From contig JAFGTG010000218.1 of assembly GCA_016934255.1 (NCBI GenBank), forward strand, positions 1 to 33,405: a stretch of DNA of 33,405 nt, written 5' to 3'. The notes beneath the pieces are model-generated. The model made no database searches, was not told the origin of the DNA, and saw only the letters and a list, made by a program, of their open reading frames with translations. Source of the DNA: Sedimentisphaerales bacterium. GTDB taxonomy: Bacteria > Planctomycetota > Phycisphaerae > Sedimentisphaerales > Anaerobacaceae. Numbering within the stretch: position 1 is the first letter of the stretch; every line of letters starts with the position of its first letter. Below are positions 17,286-23,921 of this stretch, one piece after another. Position numbers and translations under genes: made by a program.

Positions 17286-18089
17286 TTAGGGTATAACATG
17301 CCAGTTCGACGCCATCAGCGCGAAATCCCCCAGATTAACAAGACCATCCCGGTTAGCGTCGGCCCGCTCGTAATAATCGTTTTTCCGTCCGGCGTCCGTT
17401 GCCAGCCAGTAGCGGCTCAATTCCATTAGATCGGCGATATCCACGATACCATCGACGACCAAATCGCCCGTTAATGGCTCCGTATTAAAAACGATTGTAA
17501 AAGGTTCTGAAGGCTCATATTTGTCTCCATCGTCCAGCGAATCGTAGAGACAAAACGTGATCCAGTGCAGATTCTCGCCATCCACGGCTTGGTACGACAT
17601 GTGCATATGGCTATCGTCGCGTTGGTGATATATGGCGCTGTGACTGAAACTCTGACCGACGGTATCGATGGTAAATTGGGGATAATCCTTATGCACGGCC
17701 CGGATGCCCTCCGACATATCGACACATTCGATAAAAATGTTGTAATCCGCTTCGGGCTCGCCGGCGAGGGCACGGTTGGGATCGTAGGTATAAGCCGCGC
17801 TCGGATTCGTGCTTTGGAACGCGTCTAAGCCGGGTTCGCCAACACGATAGGAGTAACTCGGAAAGATACTCTTGTGCAAAGGGTAAAACCAGTTGGCGTA
17901 TTCGGTCTCTCCGCTGTCCCGGTATTTCTGCCGGCTATCGACAAATAACTGTCTGTCGTCGTCGGTGCCTTCGATGCCGTCCCGATTACAGCCGATGATC
18001 AAGTGGTCGAGCGGACACTCCGCTTGCACAATGGAGGATACCGCCGGGATCATTATCAATATGATTCCCAGGTTGATTCTTGATATCAT
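17286..18089 (-). CDS. Secreted dockerin-type protein with His-containing ligand-like motif
   Basis: A 267-residue exported protein with signal peptide MISRINLGIILIMIPAVSSIVQA. The middle region (about 25-205) is of an unrecognised family. It contains the phrases DHLIIGCNRDGIEGTDDDRQLF and SHSAIYHQRDDSHMHMSY, the latter rich in spaced histidines. The C-terminus is a complete dockerin type I pair: DLVVDGIVDIADLMELSRYW (about 208-228) and DANRDGLVNLGDFALMASNW (about 244-263), both with the Asp/Asn calcium-loop spacing. In planctomycetes dockerins are common on exported proteins and do not imply a cellulosome. It is downstream of a pseudopilin gene and a second dockerin gene near a Fur/Zur-type repressor. 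A zinc link is an inference from context and histidines. Confidence 0.75.
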   Translation of the reverse strand: MISRINLGIILIMIPAVSSIVQAECPLDHLIIGCNRDGIEGTDDDRQLFVDSRQKYRDSGETEYANWFYPLHKSIFPSYSYRVGEPGLDAFQSTNPSAAYTYDPNRALAGEPEADYNIFIECVDMSEGIRAVHKDYPQFTIDTVGQSFSHSAIYHQRDDSHMHMSYQAVDGENLHWITFCLYDSLDDGDKYEPSEPFTIVFNTEPLTGDLVVDGIVDIADLMELSRYWLATDAGRKNDYYERADANRDGLVNLGDFALMASNWHVIP

Positions 18090-18240: not shown

Positions 18241-19026
18241 TTAAGGTGTTTCGGGCCATTTTGGCGCCGCTTCAGGATACCAATAGCACGTGCCCGGCCA
18301 CTGATACGTCTGTTCGAAAGTCAATCCATCGACGTGACCGTCGGCAAACAGGTAATTGGAATTTTTTTTATGCCGGTCCCACGCGACGAACTGCTTGGCG
18401 TATTCGACCGATCCTTCCCAGCTCTCCGGGTGGATATGATCGGCCAAGTCGAAGCTTTCCGTATCCGGGGCCTCGCTGATCCAGATGCAGAACATCGGGC
18501 GACGAATATTGTTGACGTTGTTATACCGGTTCACACGTGCTCCGTAGCGATAATGAATCGGGTCCAGCAGAGCATTTACGGCAAAGCTGGAATATCGCGC
18601 ATCCTTCTGGTCATCGATGGGCTTATTCCAATCGACGAAATCGTTTCCCTTGTCACTGGGACACTGGAAGAGCAACTGCTCACGTGTATATCGCGAAAGG
18701 ATAAATAACCAGTGCTCGTTCGGATCGTCACAGTGACACGAGCTCGGAGGAAGCCGATAGTCGGAGTCGAGCAGATAGGCCGAGACGGCCACACCCATCT
18801 GCCGCATGTTGCTCAGGCATGCGATTTTTCGAGCCTGCTCGCGGGCACGCCCCAGAGAAGGCAGCAGTATCCCCAGCAGCAGGGCGATAATCGCAATGAC
18901 GACCAGCAACTCAATGAGCGTAAAACCCGGTTTTCGTTTGAATAATTCAGTACGGTATTCGGGGTGCCGTGCGACACCCCGAATACGCTGTAACGTCGAT
19001 CGTAACTCGCATAAATCCGTTTTCAT
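18241..19026 (-). CDS. Pseudopilin-like protein with H-X9-DG C-terminal motif
   Basis: A 261-residue type II secretion/type IV pilin-like protein. Prepilin cleavage and methylation motif [20 protein letters not shown] begins at about residue 34, with Gly-Phe at the cleavage point and Glu at +5. The leader before it is long. The body holds [20 protein letters not shown]. Near the C-terminus is an H-X9-DG motif: His in WDRHKK, nine residues, then DG in FADGHVDGL. This pairing defines a protein family greatly expanded in Planctomycetota and Verrucomicrobiota. AGAGG lies 7 bases before the ATG. It sits between two dockerin genes, 23 bases after the upstream one, so they are probably co-transcribed. 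Its role is not known for any member I can name. Confidence 0.88.
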
Positions 19027-19049: not shown

Positions 19050-19952
19050 TTAGCTTTCATGATCGTGATCGAGAGCTTCCTGATCCTCGCCGCGGTAGAT
19101 GCCGGACTGGCCCCACTGTTCGATAACGATTTCAAGATCGAGAATATCCACAATACCGTCCTCGTTGAGGTCGCCGGTTATCGGTTGACACACCGTTTTG
19201 GCGAAAGATATGACGAAATCAGCCGAGCGCTGATAGATATCGCCGGCATCGTGAGCCGAAAACACGACCGAGACCTCTTCGTCACCTTCGTCGAGCCAGA
19301 AATAGAATCCCATGTGCTCGTGGATACCCCAGGCGTTTTGGTCGGCAAGCCATTGCTTGCTCAAAAAGTAAACGTCGCCGTTGCTTTCGAGCGTGGGGGT
19401 ATCATCCGGGAGCAAGAGGAAAAAATCATCCTCGTCGAGATTGTCACTGATGCGTTCTCGCCGAACATAAATATCCCAGGCCGGCACGGTATTGGCATCG
19501 ACGCTTTCGAGATTCCACGCGTCCAGCGGACCGTGTGCCGAATGCCAGCCGTCCAGGTGCTGGTAGCCGTTGGGATCGCCGTAACCATCCGCTTTACTGT
19601 ACGTAAAGCGACACGTGTACAGTTCCTTGGTCGGATCGTCAGGCTTTGTAATGTGCTCGTCGCCTTCCTTCACCGGTGTCAGCACAAGAAACGGCGTTCC
19701 ATTCGTCTGCTCCCAGTTAGGCCACCCCGGCGTCGCGCAGAAATGGACGGGCGGCACCGAAAAGAACCACAATTTATCATCGTCCGTCGGATCAAGGTCC
19801 ACGGCTCCAACGCCGGGATTGCTCCCATCTGCCGGACGCCAGGTGGGATTGATACCGATATGGGTATGTGCAAAGGCATGATCCGCAACCGCATAATTCG
19901 AAAGACCAAATATCAATACAAGTATGATGATACTTGCTCGTTTTATAAGCAT
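19050..19952 (-). CDS. Secreted His-rich protein with a half dockerin
   Basis: A 300-residue exported protein with signal peptide [23 protein letters not shown]. The mature region begins [15 protein letters not shown] and has more spaced histidines in [11 protein letters not shown] and [12 protein letters not shown], which look like metal ligands or a cupin-like site. Only one dockerin half is present, [20 protein letters not shown] at about 266-285, followed by an acidic tail ending DHDHES. AGGAGGT lies 9 bases before the ATG at 19952, so a GTG at 19973 is rejected. It lies 145 bases downstream of the small His/Cys membrane gene of the putative zinc operon. Function is unknown; metal binding is inferred. 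Confidence 0.72.
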
Positions 19953-20097
19953 AGCTCTATAACCTCCTGCCACTCTATAAGAAGAAGTAACTTTGTCGCT
20001 GCCTTCAATTGTCCAAACAGCTTTAAGATATATTCATGATGTGAGCGCGCCTATCGGTCCCGGAGAAAGGAATCCGTGAGGATCGAAGAGGCACGGT

Positions 20098-20406
20098 TTA
20101 GCTCAGGGGAAGCTGTGGAGGCGGACGAGGACGAAAAGAATCGAAGTGAAAGGTTTGGGTGTAAGATTGAGTATAAAACGCTATTTGACCTTCGAGTCGA
20201 TTGAAATCAGGAAGATGAGATTCGGGTTCCGTGATAAACTTGCCGGGCTTAATCAATAATCGCTGGCAAATCGGACAGTGTGCAGCATCATGGTCCTCGG
20301 GATGCTCATGGTTCAGCAAGTGGAGGTACAGCGATAATCCCGTGACCAATGCCACGAAGAAACTCGTCATCAAAATCAAACCGACTTTTCGAGCCACACG
20401 CGACAC
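20098..20406 (-). CDS. Small single-pass membrane protein with His/Cys metal-binding cluster
   Basis: About 102 residues. One membrane helix (VGLILMTSFFVALVTGLSLYL) is followed at once by the dense cluster HLLNHEHPEDHDAAHCPICQ, with five histidines and a CPIC pair in 20 residues. The rest is polar and ends in a proline-rich tail (PRPPPQLPLS). The cluster is suited to zinc or copper binding outside the membrane. A GTG start at 20406 has GGAG 9 bases upstream. A TTG at 20421 is an alternative adding five residues. It follows the Fur/Zur-type gene closely and is probably the third gene of that operon. I do not recognise a named family. Confidence 0.65.
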   Translation of the reverse strand: MSRVARKVGLILMTSFFVALVTGLSLYLHLLNHEHPEDHDAAHCPICQRLLIKPGKFITEPESHLPDFNRLEGQIAFYTQSYTQTFHFDSFRPRPPPQLPLS

Positions 20407-20438
20407 GTGTTTAATCTCCAATCTTCATTTTGCTCTAC

Positions 20439-20864
20439 TCAAGCACACGCCGGACACAGCCCTTCAAGCCGAACCTGCTGACGATAAATAATAAATCCTT
20501 CATGCGGACTCCGAGCCATCGGCAGAACCATCCCCGTCAGGCAGTACGTGTTTCCGCAACGAATGCAGGTAAAATGAGGATGACACTGGCTTTTCGTGCA
20601 ATGATGGGCCAATTCAAAATGGGCCGCCCGCTTTTCGACATACGCTTTATGCACTAATCCGACGTCCGTTAAACTTTCGAGGGTCCGATAGATACTGACC
20701 TTGTCGAAGTGATCTTCGCCCAGCCGTCGCGCTATTTGTGCCTGTTTGAGCGGCTTATTCGCCCTGATCAACACATTCAAAACGGCCACTCGACCGCTCG
20801 TACAGTAAAGCTTAACCGCCTTGAGCATCTTTCGGGCTTTCAGGTCTAAATTCGACTTAGTCAT
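20439..20864 (-). CDS. Fur-family metalloregulator (probably Zur-like)
   Basis: A 141-residue Fur-type repressor. The DNA-reading helix is DKVSIYRTLESLTDVGLV (54-71). The regulatory metal region includes His87-His88 and HPHFTCIRC (95-103). A structural zinc site is formed by Cys100/Cys103 and Cys137/Cys140 (CPAC at the C-terminus). The family represses target genes when loaded with its metal. Zur identity is inferred from the His-rich neighbours. GGAG lies 5 bases before the ATG at 20864; an in-frame extension to 21059 would run back through the preceding gene. It lies 17 bases after the His-rich membrane protein gene, and a matching palindrome is found upstream of that gene. Confidence 0.88.
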   Translation of the reverse strand: MTKSNLDLKARKMLKAVKLYCTSGRVAVLNVLIRANKPLKQAQIARRLGEDHFDKVSIYRTLESLTDVGLVHKAYVEKRAAHFELAHHCTKSQCHPHFTCIRCGNTYCLTGMVLPMARSPHEGFIIYRQQVRLEGLCPACA

Positions 20865-20881
20865 TTCTACTCCGGATCCTC

Positions 20882-21616
20882 TCAATGGTGATGATGCGAC
20901 AGATCGACCTCCGAATTCACAAACAACAACGGAAACACAATATCGCTGATACAGCAGGGCAGCCAGACCGCGATAAATAGAACGATAAAGACACCGGCGA
21001 GCATCACCGGTGACAGTTCCCGGTGCGTGTTCATAAGAACGTGGAATGATGAGGCCCACGTACTAACCAGCACGTGCCCGGCGTGTGGGAATTTCGTGCT
21101 TGGCCATAAAAACGCAATGATAACCCCGAGTAACGCGGCGGGATTAACGAGATACCAGTCCTCGATGAACCCCAAATGAAGCCTTGCCCGGATCGAGGAT
21201 GATTCCGTCTCATGAGCGTGTTCGTGCTCCCCGGATTCGTCATGCGTGTGAGCATCGTTCTGCTCATCGTGACCATGCGTATGCGAATGAACCGGAATGG
21301 CCACTCCCAAAATGCTTTCGCCGAAAAACGGAAGAACGCAATCACTCAATGTGGCGATGCCAACCGCACCGAAATACCCCACCAGAAAAACGCTCAAAAA
21401 ACCAGCCTTCTTCTTGTAAAGCTTGTACAATGAAGCGGTTACGATCGCCGAAAGGACCACGTGAGCGGGGTGGAACACCTGGAAAAGCCGATGACTAACC
21501 TCCGGTTCCTCACTTTTGAACAAAAGCATACAAAGAATCCCCGTAGCCGCTCCAAAAAGCGTAAATGGCGCATGACTTTTCAATTCCGTCAGGATTCTTT
21601 TCAATCGTATGCTCAT
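20882..21616 (-). CDS. Polytopic membrane protein with His-rich loop (putative metal handling)
   Basis: A 244-residue protein with about six membrane helices. Between helices 3 and 4 is a His-rich loop (110-135) starting HSHTHGHDEQNDAHTHDE, with nine histidines alternating with small or acidic residues. The protein ends in HHHH. Conserved-looking polar residues inside or beside helices include FHPAHVV, ATLSDCVLP, KFPHAGHVLVSTWASSFHVLM and WLPCCISDIVFP, which could form a metal path. The loop resembles those of ZIP and CDF zinc transporters, but the helices match neither family that I can recognise. First gene of the operon with the Fur-type regulator; a 21-base palindrome lies 79-99 bases upstream. 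Metal transport or storage is inferred. Confidence 0.72.
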   Translation of the reverse strand: MSIRLKRILTELKSHAPFTLFGAATGILCMLLFKSEEPEVSHRLFQVFHPAHVVLSAIVTASLYKLYKKKAGFLSVFLVGYFGAVGIATLSDCVLPFFGESILGVAIPVHSHTHGHDEQNDAHTHDESGEHEHAHETESSSIRARLHLGFIEDWYLVNPAALLGVIIAFLWPSTKFPHAGHVLVSTWASSFHVLMNTHRELSPVMLAGVFIVLFIAVWLPCCISDIVFPLLFVNSEVDLSHHHH

Positions 21617-21694
21617 CTTTGTTTTCTACTCCAAATCCTGTATTCGATTCACTCATTGACAACACACGTAACACAACGTTAACTACCCTATCAA

Positions 21695-21715
21695 ATTTGC
21701 AACTATGTTGCAAAT
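21695..21715. promoter_or_regulatory. Perfect palindrome, candidate Fur/Zur operator
   Basis: Nine-base arms ATTTGCAAC (21695-21703) and GTTGCAAAT (21707-21715) around TAT. TTGCAA-type dyads of this length are typical of Fur-family operators in several phyla. It lies between the divergent His-rich membrane gene and ribF, directly in front of the operon that encodes a Fur-family protein, so autoregulation is the simplest reading. Confidence 0.7.
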
Positions 21716-21869
21716 ATATTTTTTATTTTTTCATCTAATCGGGATACCAAGGATTGGGGCTCACCGAATCATTCAGCGCTATTTTGAGCCGAAACGCTTG
21801 CAGATGAACGTGCGTAGGGGTACATTATCACCTCTACCCATGAATAGGATGCCGGTAGGGAGCTCAGAC

Positions 21870-22886
21870 ATGAATAACAAGAAACAGGATCGTAAAGAGA
21901 TGAAAGTCATCGACACCATATCGGAACTGGAACAAATCGAAAAGGGCTGCGTACTGACGATCGGCAACTTTGACGGCGTCCACCTCGGACACCAGGAGAT
22001 TTTAGCCGCCGCCCGCCAAATCGCGGATCAACGCGGAGCCGAATTGGTCGCGATGACCTTTGAACCGCACCCCGTGGCCATCCTATTTCCCGAACGAGCG
22101 CCGGGCGTCCTGACGCCCCTGGAGCTTAAAATGCATTTACTGGCCCAATGCGGCGTCGATTCCATGATTGTGCTCAAAGACAATCCCGAATTGCTGGACC
22201 TGACGCCGGAGGATTTTGTCAGCCGCTTTCTCGTCGAAAAAATCCGGCCCAGCGCCGTCGTGGAAGGCACGGATTTCAACTTCGGCGTCGGACGGACCGG
22301 CAATGTCGATACCCTTATGAAACTGGGACCCCTTGAAGGATTTGCCACCTCCATTATCCAACCGAAGAAAATCATACTTTCCACAGGCCAGTCGATCCGC
22401 GTCTCCAGCACGATGATCCGCTATATGCTCGAAAGCGGCCACGTCGCAGATGCCAGTGCGGCTCTGGGCCGACCCTATCAGCTCATTGAAGAGATCATCT
22501 CCGGCCGGGGCATCGGCAAAAAACTGGGATTTCCAACGCTCAACATGCGAAAACCCAAACAGGTCCTCCCCGCTGAGGGCGTCTATGCCGGTTTTGTAAC
22601 CATAGGGGACGCCATAGACGATCTCCTCACAAGCAAAAAGTCGATTCCCGCGGCGTACAGCATCGGCCAGGCGCGGACCTACGGCGAAGAATTCCCATTG
22701 CTGATTGAGGCCCATCTGCTACAAAAGAATCTCGGGGATATCACGGCCCAATACATGGCGATGGACTTCATTCAACGCATCCGCAGCCAGCACAAATTCA
22801 AAACGCCCGATGATCTCTCCAAACAAATCGCCAAAGACTGCGAACAAGCGGAAGAAATCTTAAGTAAGTGCAGACATGACGGATGA
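21870..22886 (+). CDS. ribF: Bifunctional riboflavin kinase / FAD synthetase
   Basis: Makes FMN from riboflavin and ATP, and FAD from FMN and ATP. The 338-residue length is normal. The N-terminal nucleotidyltransferase domain has the HxGH motif in GNFDGVHLGHQ (about 32-42) and a conserved TFEPHP. The C-terminal kinase domain has GRGIGKKLGFPTLN at about 212-225 and EGVYAG shortly after. The ATG at 21870 has AGGGAG 7 bases upstream. Upstream in-frame starts would translate the palindrome region, and a later ATG at 21900 is also possible. The gene is divergent from the zinc-type operon and shares its intergenic palindrome. It is followed after 33 bases by nrnA, a common pairing near infB-rbfA in other bacteria. 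Confidence 0.93.
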   Translation: MNNKKQDRKEMKVIDTISELEQIEKGCVLTIGNFDGVHLGHQEILAAARQIADQRGAELVAMTFEPHPVAILFPERAPGVLTPLELKMHLLAQCGVDSMIVLKDNPELLDLTPEDFVSRFLVEKIRPSAVVEGTDFNFGVGRTGNVDTLMKLGPLEGFATSIIQPKKIILSTGQSIRVSSTMIRYMLESGHVADASAALGRPYQLIEEIISGRGIGKKLGFPTLNMRKPKQVLPAEGVYAGFVTIGDAIDDLLTSKKSIPAAYSIGQARTYGEEFPLLIEAHLLQKNLGDITAQYMAMDFIQRIRSQHKFKTPDDLSKQIAKDCEQAEEILSKCRHDG

Positions 22887-22919
22887 TTTAAAACGAAACC
22901 CCTTATTAAAAACTTGACA

Positions 22920-23921
22920 ATGAATAACGATCTCCAAAAAGCAATCGAGTTAATTAATCAATCCAACTGTGTTTTGATGACGACGCACACGAAGCCGGAC
23001 GGTGATGCGTGTGGATCTGTAGTGGCAATGTCCGAAGCGTTGAGAGCACTGGGTAAGAGCGTCATTCCGCTTTTGCTTTCGACGGTCCCGACGTGGTACG
23101 AGTTTTTGTTTACTGAAAAAGTGCCCGTTCTTGGTGAAGATATTCAACTCGATGAGTTGAAAGCGGGGGGGCTGGGTGACTTCGACTTGATCGTGATTGT
23201 CGATACAAACAGCACGAGTCAATTACCGACGTTCGACGAATTCTTAAAATCGAATGACAAACCGGTTTTGATTATCGATCATCATGTTATCTCAGACGGC
23301 CTGGGTGACATAGAGATTGTCGATTCCTCTGCATCCGCAACGGGCTTAATCGTTCTCGATCTGTTCAAGCACACCGGTTGGGCGATCACGGAGAAAATTG
23401 CCGAGGCGTTGTTCATCGCGATCGCTACCGACACGGGCTGGTTCCAGTTCAGCAACACCGACAGCCGGACACATCGTGGCTGTGCCGAATTGATCGAAGC
23501 CGGGGCGAAATCGGCGATGATTTACGAAAAGCTATACCATACCTTCTCACAGGCAAGGTTCAAACTTATGATCGCGATGCTCGATTCGCTTGAGCTGCAC
23601 TTCGATGACCGGTACGCCGTCATGCAGATTACCCGGAACGACTTCGAGCGAACCGGCGCCGAATACAGCGATACGGAAAATCTCATCAACGAAGCCCATC
23701 GCATCGCCACGGTCACGACGACGGCGCTCTTCATCGAGCTTAAAGACGGTCGAGTTCGCTGCTCGCTGCGAAGCCGCGATGGGCTTGACGTCAGCCGAAT
23801 CGCCGCCCAATTCGGTGGCGGAGGCCACAAACAAGCAGCCGGCACGTTTCTGCCCGGACCATTAGAAAAGGCAAAACAGCTCATCATGGCTGAAATCACC
23901 AAGGATATTGACAAGAATTGA
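22920..23921 (+). CDS. nrnA: DHH-family phosphoesterase, nanoRNase / pAp phosphatase
   Basis: Manganese-dependent enzyme that degrades 2-5 nt RNAs and usually also dephosphorylates pAp. The 333-residue length fits NrnA. DHH domain motifs are HTKPDGDACGS (23-33), VDTNS (about 95), IDHHV (about 119-123) and DTGWFQFSNTDSRTH. The C-terminal DHHA1 substrate-binding motif is GGGGHKQAAG (about 298-307). The ATG at 22920 is the natural start although no strong ribosome site precedes it; translation may be coupled to ribF. It converges with the GH5-like gene at 23940 with no evident intrinsic terminator between. All metal ligands appear present. Confidence 0.9.
   Translation: MNNDLQKAIELINQSNCVLMTTHTKPDGDACGSVVAMSEALRALGKSVIPLLLSTVPTWYEFLFTEKVPVLGEDIQLDELKAGGLGDFDLIVIVDTNSTSQLPTFDEFLKSNDKPVLIIDHHVISDGLGDIEIVDSSASATGLIVLDLFKHTGWAITEKIAEALFIAIATDTGWFQFSNTDSRTHRGCAELIEAGAKSAMIYEKLYHTFSQARFKLMIAMLDSLELHFDDRYAVMQITRNDFERTGAEYSDTENLINEAHRIATVTTTALFIELKDGRVRCSLRSRDGLDVSRIAAQFGGGGHKQAAGTFLPGPLEKAKQLIMAEITKDIDKN

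Follow-up and report, generated by a model that had tools for sequence, protein, structure and literature searches.

We propose that three adjacent genes of a Sedimentisphaerales bacterium form a zinc-starvation operon that is repressed by its own Zur-type regulator, a reading to which we assign a probability of roughly 85%. The genes lie on contig JAFGTG010000218.1 of assembly GCA_016934255.1, positions 1–33,405 of the forward strand; this whole stretch of 33,405 nt is called the window. Zinc as the signal is further supported by relatives in which the gene run goes on to genes for ZnuA and ABC-3 permeases. For the product of the first gene, called TM here, a role as inner-membrane zinc importer is suggested by its sequence and appears moderately probable. 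The features are:

20882–21616, minus strand: TM, a six-helix inner-membrane protein of 244 aa, candidate zinc importer, without Pfam or NCBIfam family but with relatives
20439–20864, minus strand: Fur-family regulator of 141 aa, Zur-like according to Pfam (FUR, 2.3e-9), alignment to S. coelicolor Zur (3mwm) and conservation
20098–20406, minus strand: small one-helix protein of 102 aa, His-rich, with CPIC and with PRPPP near the C end; its relatives directly follow Fur
21695–21715, strand-neutral: operator palindrome ATTTGCAACATAGTTGCAAAT, a predicted Zur-type box according to conservation and the Desulfovibrio ZUR signal consensus (PMC545781)
21685–21713, minus strand: probable promoter with TTGCAA (21713–21708) as −35, a 17-bp spacer and TAGGGT (21690–21685) as weak −10
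19050–19973, minus strand: secreted His-containing protein (AHTHIG) with a dockerin-like end
18241–19026, minus strand: DUF1559/prepilin-type secreted protein, whose order with the 19050–19973 gene is kept in some loci
17286–18089, minus strand: second dockerin-type secreted protein, weakly similar to the 19050–19973 protein

The sequence-only reading of this DNA had described three closely spaced minus-strand genes, and this description holds: gaps of 17 and 32 bases separate the genes for TM, the Fur-family regulator and the small protein, and a GGAG precedes every start codon, which is GTG for the small protein. The proteins had also been described correctly, as TM has six helices, nine histidines in one loop (residues 104–146) and a HHHH end, the Fur-family regulator has two CxxC zinc sites (C100xxC103 and C137xxC140), and the small protein carries five histidines and CPIC within 20 residues (HLLNHEHPEDHDAAHCPICQ). 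The neighbourhood, on whose conservation the proposal had been made to depend, is conserved: the same Fur subfamily follows TM in 44 Planctomycetota loci, window included. Divergent genes, presumably ribF-like and DHH-type as judged from sequence and general knowledge (window 21705–23921, plus strand), are kept as neighbours in many relatives. Downstream in the window lie an amidase gene and, further on, a phosphomannose isomerase gene, both of which we take to code for zinc enzymes and both of which recur near TM in relatives. In six Fur-less Planctomycetota loci (L045, L046, L054, L058, L070, L075) the phosphomannose isomerase gene directly follows TM.

The dyad of 21 bases in front of the first gene was found as claimed, with perfect 9-base arms and a 3-base gap. 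The window contains six perfect 9-base dyads with a gap up to 10, compared with 0–3 in shuffled sequences, and ATTTGCAACATAGTTGCAAAT is the sole one with a gap up to 4. The dyad alone is thus mildly unusual, and it owes its significance to its conservation. Among loci with at least 300 upstream bases the box stands upstream of TM in 36 of 44 Fur-linked loci versus one of 60 Fur-less loci; the exact box is absent from eight Fur-linked loci, and the Planctomycetota TM loci without Fur gene are also without box. The single Fur-less case, L014, has a box-like TTGCAACTCGGTTGCA before a TM gene with no adjoining Fur gene, and a weak Fur relative is encoded elsewhere in that genome. Within the genomes searched the box is nearly unique: 15 of 16 genomes have the exact 15-mer TGCAACTNAGTTGCA either a single time or as a pair of adjacent copies, and a scan with the 17-mer allowing up to 2 mismatches gave no further site in eight of ten genomes. 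G306 and G299 have one extra weak match each, which is chance level judging by controls. Ten other GTGCAACnnnGTTGCAC sites in the genome of the window turned out to be copies of a dispersed repeat and not boxes. This repeat, GTAGGGTGTGCAAC(TTT/ATA)GTTGCACACGCGG, mimics the box, has flanks that match each other and is present on at least ten contigs of this genome (loci L115–L125; contigs C82, C114, C201, C268, C392, C469, C475, C492, C536 and C631).

The position of the box relative to the promoter is conserved as well. A −10 hexamer lies 17 bp from the first or second half-site in 26 of the 36 loci. When all half-site to −10 spacings were compared, requiring at least 4/6 hexamer matches, the 17-bp spacing was found in 14 loci for the first and 17 loci for the second half-site, and other spacings in 0–7 loci. 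The window's own −10, TAGGGT, is weak (3/6 match). With this spacing the box covers the −35, as expected of a repressor site; since the half-sites TTGCAA/TTGCAT double as −35, a bound protein would block RNA polymerase. This arrangement bears on the possibility that TM serves export or detoxification and that the operon responds to zinc excess. Efflux proteins such as CDF have His-rich loops and C-terminal His runs, and TM shares these traits, but a Fur-family protein with its box over the −35 implies that the metal-bound form represses, which is the reverse of how efflux is controlled, and the gene run is shared with ZnuA. An exporter is therefore very improbable.

The box itself is of a known type. 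For znuABC-zur of Desulfovibrio, the ZUR signal predicted by Rodionov and colleagues is ATGCAACnnnGTTGCAT (PMC545781), and several of our boxes, for example ATGCAACTTAGTTGCAT, match this consensus exactly. The box fits the Nur consensus tTGCaa-N5-ttGCAA (PMC3919588), too, which would suit the uptake of nickel, cobalt, manganese or iron in place of zinc, with a regulator resembling Nur, Mur or Fur. A weak similarity of TM to CbtA, although it stays below the family cut-off (PF09490, E=0.53, 10.5 vs 30.7 bits), and the location of some Omnitrophota TM copies near feoAB point in the same direction. Nevertheless, the box equals a published predicted ZUR signal, the SBP linked to TM in some relatives scores best with the zinc model AztC, and the aligned sensory site of the regulator has a cysteine as in Zur proteins. 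Taken together we regard a different metal as quite unlikely.

The regulator belongs to the Fur family (PF01475, E=2.3e-9, 37.9 bits, cut-off 23.1). Its structural Cys4 site C100/C103/C137/C140 is complete and 100% conserved, and the candidate sensory ligands H72/C89/H95/H97 are 97–100% conserved (C89 97%, H95 and H97 100%). The latter four residues align to D65, C79, H85 and H87 of S. coelicolor Zur (ScZur, 3mwm), of which we take D65, H85 and H87 to be ligands and of which C79 belongs to the M site; the regulator has a cysteine at the C79 position, histidines at H85 and H87, and H72 at the place of D65. As these conserved residues align with ScZur and the Nur M site consists of four histidines, the regulator favours zinc. 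The score with the NCBIfam Zur equivalog PRK11639 misses the cut-off (24 vs 167 bits) by so much that the regulator is not an orthologue of E. coli Zur. Other Planctomycetota have a 27–38% identical Fur subtype with HPHFxCxxC, which is found throughout the phylum. C89 and C94 are missing from all four intact copies that were looked at (L201, L202, L203, L205), and the subtype is once found near folE.

The link to zinc uptake comes from relatives with longer gene runs. In L072 and L059 the order is TM, Fur, small protein, porin-like protein, ZnuA and two ABC-3-type permeases. ZnuA is recognized by Pfam with 7e-45 and 3.4e-46, respectively, the permease pair of L072 with 4e-21 and 3e-18, and the gaps in the L072 run measure 6 to 75 bases. 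The runs of L035 and L053 extend to the porin-like protein and the ZnuA gene. For the linked ZnuA the best NCBIfam score is that of the zinc SBP AztC, below the AztC cut-off. The palindrome over the promoter and the ZnuA and ABC-3 genes in the runs of relatives are both in line with a Zur operator.

The same gene runs could also mean that TM is an accessory within a zinc-starvation regulon, namely a zinc-binding partner of the porin or ZnuA, a membrane metal chaperone or a store. The gene run includes ZnuA in four relatives and in two of them also ABC-3 permeases able to import, and the His loop is suited to binding. On the other hand, most TM-Fur loci have no ABC genes alongside, no ZnuA turned up in three chromosome-level records (G295, G296, G297) of the ten genomes searched, TM has invariant polar residues inside its helices, and members of the family can do without the loop. 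We therefore consider an accessory role unlikely. A Pfam search also found no ZIP in G296, one of the ten genomes; as the records G295–G297 may be incomplete, the missing ZnuA and ZIP are suggestive only. TM-Fur genomes have mostly kept their ZIP genes. The genome of the window has on contig C136 (L167, 3124–8137) a cluster that lacks TM and Fur and codes for a similar small protein, a porin-like protein, ZnuA and a pair of ABC-3-like permeases; next to it lies another ZnuA gene, accompanied by genes for an ATPase and a permease. A short pattern scan revealed no box at the porin-ZnuA-ABC3 cluster.

TM itself could not be placed in a known family, in agreement with the sequence-only reading: profile searches of Pfam and NCBIfam gave nothing above cut-off for the window protein, 70 relatives scanned singly gave no family above cut-off, and the TM profile found no family among the PDB sequences. 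In particular, the window protein has no Pfam match to ZIP (PF02535, E<=10) or CDF, and ZIP is absent among the families listed for the 70 members at E<=1. The CDF equivalog DmeF (16.2 vs 250 bits) and, for the family, DUF4257 stay below their cut-offs. One scan of genome contigs yielded 80 TM loci that were kept; relatives span at least seven phyla and the hosts comprise Planctomycetota, Omnitrophota, Auribacterota, Elusimicrobiota, Deltaproteobacteria/Myxococcota, Chloroflexota, Aerophobetes and others. TM matches, some of them weak, were obtained in 35 of 294 Planctomycetota genomes. TM stands beside other Fur-type genes in Myxococcota/Deltaproteobacteria, Elusimicrobiota and Chloroflexota (L086, L104, L110), and these three are found in the other main clade of the TM tree, apart from the Planctomycetota group; the Fur label needs nine changes on this tree. 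In Omnitrophota and other relatives TM comes without Fur gene, box and His loop, so that its function in these organisms may be wider or another one. Three Omnitrophota loci (L079, L097, L103) have TM near feoA/feoB, once also near a DtxR-type gene, which hints that a different metal or regulator is involved there.

The alignment of the family shows invariant residues at H15, H49-P50-x-H52, S91-D92, P96, H178-x-x-H181, C221-C222-x-S224-D225 and P229, and near-invariant residues at H147, E152 and H192. The invariant motifs fall into the helices, HPxH in TM2, SD in TM3, HxxH in TM5 and CCxSD in TM6. The histidine-rich features on which the first reading had put its emphasis are present, but they are not what the protein is built around: most relatives in other phyla have hardly any such loop, with a median of 7 loop histidines in the Fur-linked Planctomycetota rows and of 1 in the remaining rows. 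Judging from the alignment, the His-rich loop is a variable add-on to the family. An internal duplication (HPxHV/HAGHV, SD/SD) looked convincing by eye and was no better than column shuffles in a profile test. Several invariant membrane histidines would also be compatible with a redox or haem membrane protein that merely adjoins the regulator, and ferredoxin-type MinD ATPases occur among the Omnitrophota neighbours. However, HxxH with histidines one helix turn apart, SD and CC would suit metal-ion sites better, and the box is found before TM and almost nowhere else in the genomes searched, so that this explanation is scarcely credible.

AlphaFold models of the window TM (pLDDT 85, pTM 0.81) and of a loop-less relative (pLDDT 90, pTM 0.87) both show six long helices. 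Positive charge peaks in the connections TM2-3 and TM4-5 and at the N-terminus, and the TM3-4 loop is acidic. This charge pattern predicts a periplasmic His loop and a cytoplasmic HHHH end. A His loop on the outside favours capture for import; we favour import by TM over storage. Foldseek found no match to the PDB at E<=0.001 for either model. With VIA-align, prokaryotic TRIC chains rank first, with Z reaching 9.8 for one model and 10.4 for the other and an rmsd of about 3.0 across some 132 residues, values to be seen against the Z of 13 that helical bundles can reach by chance. In this overlap TM2–6 of TM lie on TM1–5 of TRIC. The overlap with BbZIP is weak (Z 6.0 with rmsd 3.9 over 143 residues, and Z 5.0; rmsd 3.9–4.0). 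Neither the window TM nor its relatives match TRIC/UPF0126 (PF03458) in Pfam. The best local alignment to the TRIC/UPF0126 profile falls into the register of the structural overlap, with TLSD on TLRD after the glycine kink. Its score of 16.9 was exceeded by several of 100 shuffles (up to 25.5); homology was thus rejected and we treat the TRIC likeness as a lead only.

The small one-helix protein is, from its sequence, probably a periplasmic metal-binding protein. Its gene is followed by the AHTHIG gene in nine loci including the window, where the gap is 124 bases, and the AHTHIG gene is possibly the distal part of the same locus.

We suggest the following mechanism, which builds on what the sequences show: the order of the genes, the conserved box and its place over the −35, the conserved ligands and the link to ZnuA. 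When zinc is sufficient, the Fur protein with structural zinc at C100/C103/C137/C140 and sensory zinc at H72/C89/H95/H97 would bind the palindrome as a dimer, cover the −35 and silence the operon, its own gene among the rest. At falling zinc levels the regulator would release the palindrome and the operon would be expressed. TM would then carry zinc through the inner membrane: its TM3-TM4 loop, acidic and rich in histidine, could collect Zn(II) in the periplasm, and the path of the ion could be lined by HPxH (TM2), SD (TM3), HxxH (TM5) and CCxSD (TM6). Outside the membrane the anchored His/CPxC protein may capture or hand over zinc, and the secreted His-containing proteins of the window perhaps do so, too. 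As a more tentative proposal, TM could be the first member of a novel zinc importer family that has no sequence relationship to ZIP, CDF, NRAMP and ABC permeases and whose helices are arranged as in TRIC channels, with Cys and other residues replacing the kink glycines. This family would be widespread in uncultured phyla and in Planctomycetota placed under a dedicated Zur that controls essentially one promoter. If TM carries zinc, it would add a transporter family to the short list of ZnuABC, ZIP and few others and help to explain the zinc supply of many uncultured bacteria. The single-promoter Zur circuit makes the zinc assignment directly testable.

Several known systems invite comparison. 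The small protein resembles DUF2946 in being short and His/Cys-containing but scores below the Pfam cut-off (E=0.024, 15.8 vs 23.7 bits). The ZepA (All3515) exoprotein system (PMC10957091) has a Zur-linked secreted His protein, which lies beside a Fur-family gene in some PVC bacteria. An identity of the secreted proteins with ZepA was rejected, as there is no NCBIfam match, for the 19050–19973 protein included, and the motif H-x2-9-H[FY]H is absent from this protein and seven of its eight relatives. ZIP and CDF transporters have, like TM, His/Asp motifs in paired helices and a His-rich loop, whereas TM lacks a Pfam sequence match to them and has different motifs (HPxH, SD, HxxH, CCxSD). TRIC/UPF0126 gives the best structural overlap with the two TM models (Z 8.5–10.4 for most TRIC entries); in contrast to TRIC, TM has no GGG kink motifs in its alignment, carries an additional helix at the N-terminus and has nothing that corresponds to TRIC TM6–7. 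With the Zur proteins of S. coelicolor, M. tuberculosis and E. coli (PMC6103462) the regulator has in common the winged-helix Fur domain, the Cys4 site and a one-Cys sensory site between the domains. It differs in its predicted His/Cys/His/His sensory site and in apparently having one promoter per genome, and two His positions of the third site (D) of ScZur are C94 and P96 here. Finally, znuABC-zur of Desulfovibrio (PMC545781) has the same 17-bp palindrome and, as here, a Fur-family regulator inside the operon that it is predicted to control. The Desulfovibrio operon consists of znuABC, whereas here the first gene codes for a family-less membrane protein and ZnuABC is usually absent from the operon.
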